From NCBI GenBank assembly GCA_027064745.1, contig JAMOPD010000227.1, positions 1 through 10,809 on the forward strand: DNA of 10,809 nucleotides, given 5' to 3'. This stretch comes from Thermococcaceae archaeon. Lineage in GTDB: Archaea; Methanobacteriota_B; Thermococci; Thermococcales; Thermococcaceae. Made by a program: the position numbers and the translations under genes. A model generated the notes under the pieces. That model saw nothing but the letters and a program-made list of their open reading frames with translations, was not told where the DNA came from and ran no database searches. Position 1 is the first letter of the stretch, and every line of letters starts with the position of its first letter. Shown one piece after another: positions 8,271 through 10,809 of the stretch.

Positions 8271-9947
8271 ATGCAAGTGCCTGCCGAGCAGCCGATTAAG
8301 GAAAATATCGTGGTTACCGATATTCAGGAGCTTAAATCCATCGTAGACGAGGTTCTTTCAAATTCAAATGGAATTTTTCTGAAGATTTTCACAAAAGACT
8401 CTACTGGAAAATATTACATTATGATGCTCACAGACAGGTCAAAGCTCTTGGCAATAGAGGCCATGCTTGTTGACCAAAAAACTTCTGTAATGGGAGATGA
8501 AGCATTTGGGATATTTAAATCCCTTTTAGGAAAGCCCATGGTACTTGATATTTATCAGCTTGATGAAATAAGCCTTAAGCTCTCACTGGCGGATAATATT
8601 GATGCATACACCTCAACTCCCCAAGTTGCCATCTCAGAGCTTTTTGGAATGACATCAGAAACTAAAGAAGAAAAAGAATCTCTCCCACAACCAAAGGAAG
8701 AAGTCGGAACAGAAAGAAAAACTCCTATAAAAAAGGCAGAAATTAAACATGAAATAAAGAAAGAATCTAAACCACTTGTCCAAGAAAGCATAAAACAAAT
8801 AGAAGCCCCAGAGGTGGAAATCAGCCTGAGAGGGGGTTCAATTCCAGAGGGAGCATTTAAAAAATATGCAGAAGATCTTCTTAAAGAATCAAAGAGAATT
8901 AAAGGGCTAAAAATTACTAAAATAGTCTTTGAAGGTAATGTCGGGGAGGGTGTTGTTTATTTAAATGTGGCATTATACGGGTTTTCAAATGCTCCTCCGA
9001 TGCAGAAGGAAATAGCCGAGAAAAGAATGATGCATGCAATAAGTAAATATGCCCCCGTTATCTTCAGAGAAACCGGGATAAAAGCTATAATAAAAGGCAT
9101 GAAAATTGTAATTGATGGAGAGGAGGTTAGACCCCAAGAAATCGTGGAAAGAGATAAGAGGAAAACTGCTTCTGTTGGGAAAGATGGCGTAATAACCCTA
9201 ACAGCTCTCGAGGATTACTGGACATATTTTAGTGCTTTTTCAAAAACAATCCTCAAAGAAATTGAGGATGCGGGAATCAAAGTCAAAAAGATGTATGTGG
9301 ATGTCGTTGGAAGACAAGAATTTGAAATTAATGTTTCCCTAGCTGGAACTTCTAGCTCTGATATGGACAAGATAAAGGCTGAAACAACAGTGAGTGCTAT
9401 CGTTTCCAGACATGCAAGGGAAATAGGAAGAATTTTAAATAAATACACTACTGTCCGTAGGGTAACAGTAGAGCTGGAGGAAGCTAAAGGGCATGTGCCT
9501 TCTTTTAAGGCAGAAGAAATCATTAAAAAGAAAGCTGAACTTGAAAAAGAAGTTGAAATGTTGTTGAAACAGGCTGGGATAGATGAACTCGCACCATTCA
9601 CAGAGGAGAAGAAAAAGGAGACCGAACAAACACTTATTCAAAATCGTGTTAGACCTGCAATGGAAACTTTAAAATCAAGAATACATAGTGAGCTTAAACT
9701 TGTTCCAAGGGCCAGTTTTAAATGGCTCAAATTCAACTGGGATTTTGATGGAAAAGCCGCAAAAGTTGATATAGAAGCAAGTTTTGTAAAAGAAGAAATT
9801 GGTGGGCTGTTTGGAGCATTCTCTAGTGTTCCAGAGGAGAGGATAAAAGAGGAATCTACAGCAATCATAAAACGAGCTATCAAAGAAGTTTCCCAAGATT
9901 ACAGTATAACAATTGTACCAAGAAAGGTTGAAATAATAGTCAGATAA
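8271..9947 (+). CDS. Uncharacterised 558-residue protein with three repeated alpha/beta units
   Basis: I do not recognise a characterised family. Residues about 10-125 form a compact domain resembling DUF2226-type archaeal domains (helix, strands, then LLAIEAMLVD and MGDEAFGIFKSLLG, and IYQLDEISLKLSLADN near 94-109); this is a tentative match. Residues about 127-185 are a charged Lys/Glu/Pro linker. Then come three units with the same layout (helix, two strands, helix, strand), cores at about 214-282, 337-403 and 483-558: for example KITKIVFEGN/VVYLNVALYG, KKMYVDVVGR/FEINVSLAG and FKWLKFNWDF/AKVDIEASF, each followed by a long helix and a closing strand. A charged helix near 410-455 separates the second and third. 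No membrane segment or catalytic motif is visible. The ATG at 8271, after GGTGGTGATC, is preferred over 8259. It is divergent from the RCK-DHH gene; pyrimidine-rich CTTTATCTTTTATCTTT follows the stop. Confidence 0.75.
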   Translation: MQVPAEQPIKENIVVTDIQELKSIVDEVLSNSNGIFLKIFTKDSTGKYYIMMLTDRSKLLAIEAMLVDQKTSVMGDEAFGIFKSLLGKPMVLDIYQLDEISLKLSLADNIDAYTSTPQVAISELFGMTSETKEEKESLPQPKEEVGTERKTPIKKAEIKHEIKKESKPLVQESIKQIEAPEVEISLRGGSIPEGAFKKYAEDLLKESKRIKGLKITKIVFEGNVGEGVVYLNVALYGFSNAPPMQKEIAEKRMMHAISKYAPVIFRETGIKAIIKGMKIVIDGEEVRPQEIVERDKRKTASVGKDGVITLTALEDYWTYFSAFSKTILKEIEDAGIKVKKMYVDVVGRQEFEINVSLAGTSSSDMDKIKAETTVSAIVSRHAREIGRILNKYTTVRRVTVELEEAKGHVPSFKAEEIIKKKAELEKEVEMLLKQAGIDELAPFTEEKKKETEQTLIQNRVRPAMETLKSRIHSELKLVPRASFKWLKFNWDFDGKAAKVDIEASFVKEEIGGLFGAFSSVPEERIKEESTAIIKRAIKEVSQDYSITIVPRKVEIIVR

Positions 9948-9982: not shown

Positions 9983-10047
9983 ATACTGTCAGGATAACCG
10001 GTGGGATTCAGTATAACTATTACTACTAAGCCTGACCTACTATTAAC
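9983..10047 (+). repeat. Small repeat element, copy B (left end intact)
   Basis: It begins with ATACTGTCAGGATA (9983-9996), the exact reverse complement of the right end of copy A. ATTCAG, TATAACTA (10012-10019) and TAAGCCTGACCTA (10027-10039) follow in the same order as in copy A, with two insertions: about 7 bases after AGGATAA and TTACTAC at 10020-10026. The right end is not recognisable and runs straight into the C/D box RNA gene. Confidence 0.5.
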
Positions 10048-10104
10048 TCAGCACTCAAGATCGTCATCATCCTTAACGTCAGTTTGCCTAGTTCATCATA
10101 GTTA
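10044..10104 (-). ncRNA. C/D box guide sRNA (2'-O-methylation guide)
   Basis: Archaeal C/D RNAs bind L7Ae, Nop5 and fibrillarin and direct 2'-O-methylation five bases from the D or D' box. On the minus strand all four boxes are canonical: C box ATGATGA (10099-10093), a 10-base guide ACTAGGCAAA, D' box CTGA (10082-10079), an 8-base spacer, C' box ATGATGA (10070-10064), a 12-base guide CGATCTTGAGTG and D box CTGA (10051-10048). TAAC (10104-10101) and GTTA (10047-10044) flank the boxes and can pair as the terminal stem. The size of about 61 bases is typical. The D guide predicts target CACUCAAGAUCG with methylation at its fifth base, C, which fits wobble C34 of a tRNA-Leu(CAA) anticodon loop. 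The D' guide predicts a C in UUUGCCUAGU; its target is unknown to me. Confidence 0.87.
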
Positions 10105-10131: not shown

Positions 10132-10140
10132 GTTTATAAC
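10132..10140 (-). promoter_or_regulatory. TATA box of the C/D box sRNA
   Basis: GTTATAAAC on the minus strand lies just after the stop of the upstream gene. Its centre is about 27 bases from 10109, which is where the sRNA 5' end is expected. This suggests the RNA has its own promoter, although processing from the upstream gene's transcript is also possible. Confidence 0.55.
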
Positions 10141-10143
10141 TCT

Positions 10144-10809
10144 TCATCTCTTCACTGGAATTATGTTCTGATGCTTTATATCATACTTATATACACTCGG
10201 CTCGAATTCAAAGAGTGGAGATTTAAGAACGTACATTTGTTCTGAAATTTCATGATTGTTCCTTTCACTCAGAAACTCAACAACATAGTCATTAAATTCG
10301 ATATTCCATGATAGAAACTCCATAGAAACTCTATCCTTGTTCAAAAGGTATATTGAAAATAGATGTCTCCCGTTTATAGTCTTGTTTGATAACAAACGTT
10401 TAATAAGCTTAACAGTTCTATCTTCACCAATCTCAAAAGCCATACCGTCAACTGAGAATACAAACTCTACTATCCCCGTTTTGTTTGTCTTTTTGAAGAT
10501 CTCCCTATATATTTGCTCTAATTTTGGGATGTATGTTTCGGGATTAAAGACTTCTATCTTGTAGATATAATCGCCGGGGTAGTGGAAATCATATTTTGAA
10601 CCAAAAACATCAATTATTATCAAATTACCCTTTTTACCTTCTTCTTCTATATCCAATCCAACGGATTTTCCTCTCAGTATCAATTTTGGAAGTGGTAGGT
10701 TGTAATTTATAATAATCCCAAGATACCCTTTTGAAAGCTGATATTTTAGGATCTTAAATGGCATTGCCCATCCAAGTGAGAAAGAATCATAAATAACCAA
10801 CAAACTTGA
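10144..10809 (-). CDS. Degenerate RecA/KaiC-like protein, DUF257-like (5' end cut by window)
   Basis: 222 codons are visible and the frame is open to the window edge. The TTG at 10803 is a possible start, but LLVIYDSFSLGWAMPFKIL looks like the first strand and helix of a RecA/KaiC-like fold, so the gene probably begins further out. Where a Walker A loop would sit, the sequence is IYDSFSLGW with no GKT/S. A Walker-B-like strand NLIIIDVFG is present. The middle (YIPKLEQIYREIFKK, then GIVEFVFSVDGMAFEIGED) and the overall size resemble Thermococcales DUF257 proteins, which are thought to be nucleotide-binding relics without ATPase activity. That assignment is moderate. It is AT-rich like its neighbours. 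The TGA at 10146-10144 is followed at once by the TATA box of the C/D box RNA on the same strand. Confidence 0.6.
   Translation of the reverse strand, partial: SSLLVIYDSFSLGWAMPFKILKYQLSKGYLGIIINYNLPLPKLILRGKSVGLDIEEEGKKGNLIIIDVFGSKYDFHYPGDYIYKIEVFNPETYIPKLEQIYREIFKKTNKTGIVEFVFSVDGMAFEIGEDRTVKLIKRLLSNKTINGRHLFSIYLLNKDRVSMEFLSWNIEFNDYVVEFLSERNNHEISEQMYVLKSPLFEFEPSVYKYDIKHQNIIPVKR

Follow-up and report, generated by a model that had tools for sequence, protein, structure and literature searches.

Does the short interval between two convergent genes of a Thermococcaceae contig encode a small guide RNA, and which base would such an RNA modify? We addressed this question in a window of 10,809 nucleotides, the whole stretch of DNA that was analysed, which corresponds to contig C227 of a metagenome-assembled genome (MAG) consisting of 424 contigs with 85% completeness and 3.9% contamination. 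A preliminary description had proposed a C/D box sRNA that may guide methylation of the wobble base of tRNA-Leu(CAA). In all likelihood, the locus encodes a free-standing C/D box sRNA of the archaeal snoPyro_CD type, which is predicted to guide 2'-O-methylation of C34 in this tRNA.

Architecture of the sRNA locus

The sRNA is located on the minus strand between a plus-strand open reading frame of 562 aa ending at 9947 and a minus-strand open reading frame ending at 10144. Including its flanks, the gene was assigned to 10044..10104 in the preliminary description, and these ends are predicted. Read from 10104 to 10044 on the minus strand, the order is TAAC (10104-10101), a single T (10100), box C ATGATGA (10093..10099), the 10-nt D' guide ACTAGGCAAA (10083..10092), whose target is uncertain, box D' CTGA (10079..10082), the linker CGTTAAGG (10078-10071), box C' ATGATGA (10064..10070), the 12-nt D guide CGATCTTGAGTG (10052..10063), box D CTGA (10048..10051) and GTTA (10047-10044). 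From box C to box D, a complete C/D box sRNA can be read at 10099-10048. All four boxes are exact, their C-D'-C'-D order with RUGAUGA and CUGA motifs is that of an archaeal C/D box sRNA, and the two ATGATGA boxes, the two CTGA boxes and guide lengths of 10 and 12 bases were found as described before. A search with the two-box pattern RTGATGA-N8-14-CTGA-N1-12-RTGATGA-N8-14-CTGA returned this single match in the window and none in 2000 windows randomised with a first-order Markov model (0/2000), confirming the claim of a complete sRNA.

Two accessory features stood in part. The 4-base terminal stem TAAC/GTTA is present in the window, but stems of at least four pairs are no more common among homologues than expected by chance (17/96 compared with 15.0 expected with flanks dealt at random), which rules out the stem as a feature of the family. 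Likewise, the TATA-like element TTATAAAC (10132..10139, minus strand) lies 32 nt before box C and directly follows the upstream gene, whose stop codon is at 10146-10144, but the case for a TATA box is weaker than had been claimed. We determined the distribution of such strings in the 82 family copies outside the Pyrococcus-like genus, with distances given in nt upstream of box C. A TATA-like string occurs at 18-34 nt in 40/82 copies and at 24-40 nt, the stretch holding the window's own element, in 28/82. Three stretches nearer to box C contain one in 15, 13 and 11 of the 82 copies, stretches beginning 30-48 nt upstream in 1, 3, 3 and 0 copies, and the stretch at 54-70 nt in 9/56. TATA-like strings are enriched upstream of the family copies at 18-34 and 24-40 nt.

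The nine copies of the Pyrococcus-like genus (L117-L125) have no TATA-like string at 7-73 nt upstream (0/9); one such string is found at 6 nt and one at 74 nt. Their upstream sequence looks alike across species and possibly represents a gene end. For both reasons, the sRNA may be processed from a longer transcript in these genomes.

In three named Thermococcus and Thermococcaceae MAG records that contain the neighbour gene, the sRNA follows just behind this gene in every case; these records are apparently identical with our genomes G030, G087 and G092 and therefore not independent of the conservation counts given below. In addition, the MAG itself holds a second copy of the sRNA on contig C424 (L039, G000:C424, 2392-2444, minus strand), whose D' guide GCTCGGCAGAA is more typical than that of the window. 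Both copies have the same neighbour genes, with 53% and 74% protein identity, and for this reason the bin seems to hold a second Thermococcus strain.

The D guide and its predicted target

The MAG contains a tRNA-Leu(CAA) gene (L031, 1501-1588) with the anticodon arm GTGGA-CUCAAGA-UCCAC (GTGGACTCAAGATCCAC); given two strains in the bin, this gene may stem from a strain other than that of the window. Bases 2-11 of the D guide, counted from box D, form 10 contiguous Watson-Crick pairs with A31-C40 of this tRNA (ACTCAAGATC), placing the fifth guide base opposite C34, as expected for a wobble guide. This duplex exceeds the limit of 8 pairs below which the preliminary description would have given up the target, and it supports the predicted position U33-C34-A35-A36. 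It is also longer than the minimum of 9 Watson-Crick bp across the fifth base from box D that a passage of PMC4644070 describes as a guide criterion for rRNA and that we applied to stable RNA targets in general. Taken together, the pairing suggests that the sRNA very probably guides methylation of the first anticodon base in tRNA-Leu(CAA). For archaeal C/D RNPs, the optimum reportedly combines a 12-nt spacer with a duplex of 10 bp (Yang 2016).

tRNA-Leu(CAA) was the best match of the D guide among 36 distinct tRNAs, the 23S rRNA and the 16S loci of three relatives, a scan that is incomplete because the tRNA list of the MAG is without Met, Trp, Phe, Asn and others, and that left out 5S rRNA. 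No 16S gene was found in the MAG and the relatives' loci were used in its place; they extended about 1.5 kb beyond the gene in both directions, and several of the listed 16S matches fall outside the gene. When the D guide was shuffled, 11/1500 sequences reached at least 10 Watson-Crick pairs across base 5 in any of the tRNAs, the 23S rRNA or one 16S. The next best matches were tRNA-Ser(CGA) and tRNA-Leu(UAA), each with 9 Watson-Crick pairs and one G-U in the same register. That the wobble base of one of these two is the main target appears quite unlikely: tRNA-Leu(CAA) pairs perfectly, the G-U of tRNA-Leu(UAA) falls at the target base itself, and seven of the nine Pyrococcus-like genomes have a dedicated guide for tRNA-Leu(UAA), described below. 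Both tRNAs could be secondary targets.

To assess how widely the guide is kept, we compared related genomes using two approaches. A plain DNA search detected homologues in 39/61 genomes: the MAG studied here, every other genome examined from its genus (36/36) and 2/24 from beyond the genus. The ten pairing bases GATCTTGAGT are identical in the 36/36 same-genus sRNAs, while the bases beside them vary (base 1: G in 35, A in 1; base 12: C in 25, G in 8, A in 3). A pattern for the cassette of box C', guide and box D (TGATGA-N1-4-TCTTGAGT-N0-3-CTGA) matched 95/115 genomes of the phylum, compared with 0/115 for the reversed control. The comparison shows a single wobble-methylation guide, as predicted from its pairing, kept in 90/94 genomes of an archaeal family (59/61 of the genus, the MAG counted, and 31/33 of other genera); the four family genomes without the cassette are 74-91% complete. 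Outside the family but within the class, the cassette was detected in 5/21 genomes and was absent from 16/21, and the exact cassette was found in 0/151 genomes of one other phylum, that of G059. All 96 parsed sRNAs, two of them from the MAG, contain GATCTTGAGT (96/96), although the search pattern itself specifies 8 of these 10 bases; base 1 is G in 85, A in 9 and T in 2, and base 12 varies. The sRNA is single-copy in every matching genome except this MAG with its two copies.

On the side of the target, ACTCAAGATC is kept in 29/29 tRNA-Leu(CAA) genes parsed from 30 loci, one of which is cut at a contig end. Six of these 29 genes belong to class-level genomes that gave no match to the cassette pattern. 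Since the target sequence is also kept in genomes without the cassette, its conservation proves little for the guide.

The boxes, the complementarity of the guide and its conservation in the family can be read directly from the genomes, and the steps of the mechanism follow established knowledge of archaeal C/D RNPs. L7Ae would bind the C/D and C'/D' kink-turns, after which Nop5 and fibrillarin would join. The D guide would then pair with the anticodon arm of tRNA-Leu(CAA), fibrillarin would add the 2'-O-methyl group to C34, and the resulting Cm34 may tighten the reading of UUG codons.

The D' guide and competing readings

In contrast to the D guide, the D' guide of the window reaches no more than 7 contiguous in-register Watson-Crick bp with the RNAs scanned, fewer than the 9 bp required above, and the comparison with rRNA and tRNAs suggested in the preliminary description yielded no good methylation target. 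This does not bar the RNA from the C/D family, because tRNA-directed archaeal sRNAs with one target-less guide have been described (a passage of PMC7994747). When rRNA was searched for targets of nine D' guides and one further guide, no site common to orthologues was found.

The D' guide has a core that is conserved in the family. This core, CUCGGC (CTCGGC in the DNA), is present one base behind box C in 85/91 family sRNAs and extends to CTCGGCA in 80/91; columns 2, 5, 6 and 7 are invariant in 91/91 copies, and the guide is 11 nt long in 74/91. Six family copies break the core, among them the window, whose D' guide is 10 nt long. The conserved core raises the possibility that the apparently 'orphan' guide of a tRNA-directed sRNA is a second hold on the same tRNA.

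A second sRNA of the same layout bears on this point. A pattern for the anticodon of tRNA-Leu(UAA) matched 10/115 genomes, compared with 3 for the reversed control. Of the ten matches, L189 is an sRNA judged by its surroundings; the other nine look like chance by the same measure and were rejected. With L189 as query, a DNA search of 13 genomes revealed the sister sRNA in 7/9 genomes of genus g12, which we infer to be Pyrococcus-like, and in G110 (loci L214-L219 and L222, and also L220). The same search gave no sister match in G000, G012 and G097, where it missed the known Leu(CAA) copies as well, so that the sister sRNA may nevertheless be present there. The sister D guide NGATYTTAAGTG addresses U34 of tRNA-Leu(UAA), and in G069 the fifth base is the single difference between it and the Leu(CAA) guide encoded in that genome. 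Within tRNA-Leu(UAA), the sister D' guide NCCCGCGCAGCN is complementary to GCTGCGCGGG of the variable arm and T stem, with 10-11 bp in the tRNAs of four genomes compared and 11 bp in G069. From this complementarity, the sister sRNA can apparently pair with its tRNA through both guides, which is in line with a G47 prediction cited in a passage of PMC7668247.

Could both guides of the Leu(CAA) sRNA likewise act on tRNA-Leu, with the D guide methylating C34 and the D' guide anchoring the D-arm, perhaps without methylation? This reading would add to the best explanation and is compatible with it, the anchor being decayed in the window copy; we consider it possible, though tentative. Besides the conservation of the core and the two-guide pairing of the sister sRNA, it draws on the finding that four tRNA-Leu isoacceptors of the MAG contain the complement UGCCGAG in their D-arm (nt 9-15), while TGCCGAG occurs in neither the MAG 23S nor the three 16S loci with their flanks. 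Leucine isoacceptors, CAA included, are the best-pairing tRNAs for 83/91 D' guides; for three of these, tRNA-Gly pairs equally well. Among the permutations of CTCGGCA, a 7-mer chosen after inspection, 1/420 (the real one) complements tRNA-Leu(CAA) and 63/420 complement some tRNA. In addition, the spacer to box D' varies from 10 to 13 nt across the family, so that a fifth-base site would fall on nt 10, 9 and 8 in 70, 14 and 1 of the 85 CTCGGC sRNAs. A guide whose sequence is retained while the position it would methylate shifts is more consistent with a hold than with methylation. However, the pairing comprises just 8 pairs including a G-U in most copies, and in the D-arm register a mismatch divides the 7 pairs of the window copy into 5+2. 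Shuffle values against tRNA-Leu(CAA) are 0.006, 0.024, 0.029 and 0.044 for four CTCGGC guides; the window guide (0.049) and three CCAGGC guides (0.012, 0.048 and 0.32) pair at another site, nt 14-21. The CCAGGC variant occurs in five relatives, and no compensating change was found in the tRNA D-arms of the three examined. Moreover, the D' guides outside the family are different in 5/5 relatives. At class level, four of the five outside-family genomes (not G053) gave no support for two holds: in three of them only other leucine tRNAs were matched, with poor pairing, and in G044 the D' guide can form 8 bp with the T arm of tRNA-Leu(CAA), but this string is also the best match in several other tRNAs. 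The literature searched, with snoRNAdb and the original 2000-2001 papers outside its scope, contained no description of D' pairing with the tRNA-Leu D-arm.

Instead of meeting a target, the core could be kept for internal pairing with UGCUGA, which consists of the last bases of the D guide followed by box D. UCGGCA and UGCUGA can indeed form six pairs with one G-U, but seven family members with A for G at guide position 1 break this helix and CTCGGCA is unchanged in all of them (7/7). Furthermore, a hidden box D would be expected to block L7Ae binding, and we regard this reading as improbable. A more radical alternative would dismiss the whole pattern as a chance string or as the relic of a dead sRNA, for which one could cite the shortened D' guide with its altered core and the more typical copy on C424. 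This seems extremely unlikely in view of the 0/2000 randomised windows, the intact D guide and four boxes and the TATA-like element; the C424 copy, with its diverged neighbours, would belong to the other Thermococcus strain.

A broader reading, which we regard as doubtful, would be that the Thermococcaceae possess free-standing sRNAs, one for each UUR leucine tRNA, combining a wobble-methylation guide with a guide that anchors on tRNA identity. As part of it, the CUCGGCA anchor of the Leu(CAA) sRNA would be set in register with box C and not with D', and would not lead to methylation, and the D' anchor would act as a recognition or chaperone arm within the C/D RNP.

Some divergent copies deserve mention in their own right. 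In L110-L114, outside the family, the D guide is kept beside other D' guides (GAGATTCCCGG and similar), two of which match the MAG 23S by 9 bp (one G-U) at 116. The D' guide GCCAGGCTAGG of L072 (G011) forms 11 bp with the D-arm/D-loop of the window MAG's tRNA-Thr(UGU), with the fifth base at G15, and pairs with several other tRNAs over 10-11 bp, some of these duplexes including G-U. This altered D' guide may have found new tRNA targets.

Relation to known C/D box sRNAs

According to a passage of the review PMC7994747, four Pyrococcus C/D sRNAs address wobble bases, namely those of tRNA-Leu(CAA), Leu(UAA), Met and Trp; for the tRNA-Leu(CAA) guide, it cites Gaspin 2000, Omer 2000 and later work. 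For P. furiosus, the passages of PMC7668247 considered here cite C34 of tRNA-Leu(CAA) as a snoRNAdb prediction. They report Cm34 in 'some tRNAs', naming initiator tRNA-Met, and state that other predicted positions were not detected; they are silent on whether tRNA-Leu(CAA) was analysed. As far as these passages go, Cm34 of P. furiosus tRNA-Leu(CAA) is predicted and unconfirmed. With the site unconfirmed in Pyrococcus, the guide described here makes Cm34 in Thermococcus tRNA-Leu(CAA) clearly and cheaply testable.

The Rfam search, which had been proposed as a check, gave matches below threshold at the locus: RF00095 (snoPyro_CD) scored 24.1 bits against a cut-off of 45, sR3 20.8 against 41 and sR5 16.3 against 40. 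By comparison, RF00095 was passed by five of the six Pyrococcus-like orthologues tested (L117-L119, L121 and L122) with 46-56.8 bits. The window copy shares the architecture of this family at a much lower score. No match at the cut-off was obtained for L115, L165 and L180, nor for the Pyrococcus-like L125. RF00095 misses the Thermococcaceae orthologues outside the Pyrococcus-like genus (the window at 10045-10103, minus strand, as well as L115, L165 and L180).

The Pyrococcus guide for tRNA-Leu(CAA) addresses the same target base, and the g12 orthologues share the boxes, the D guide and the CTCGGC core, whereas the window copy differs by its 10-nt D' guide with an altered core and by a TATA-like element at a distance where the nine Pyrococcus-like copies lack one. 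The Leu(UAA) wobble guide of the Pyrococcus-like genus is a sister in layout but differs in the site of its D' guide, which pairs with the variable arm and T stem. A further likeness exists to sR50 in the tRNA-Trp intron, which guides Cm34 and Um39 (a passage of PMC7994747): here, too, two guides act on one tRNA, the wobble base included. However, sR50 is encoded within the intron of its own target, whereas the window sRNA is a separate gene. Altogether, guides for this target are already in the literature for Pyrococcus, and the window contributes a divergent copy to a known family.
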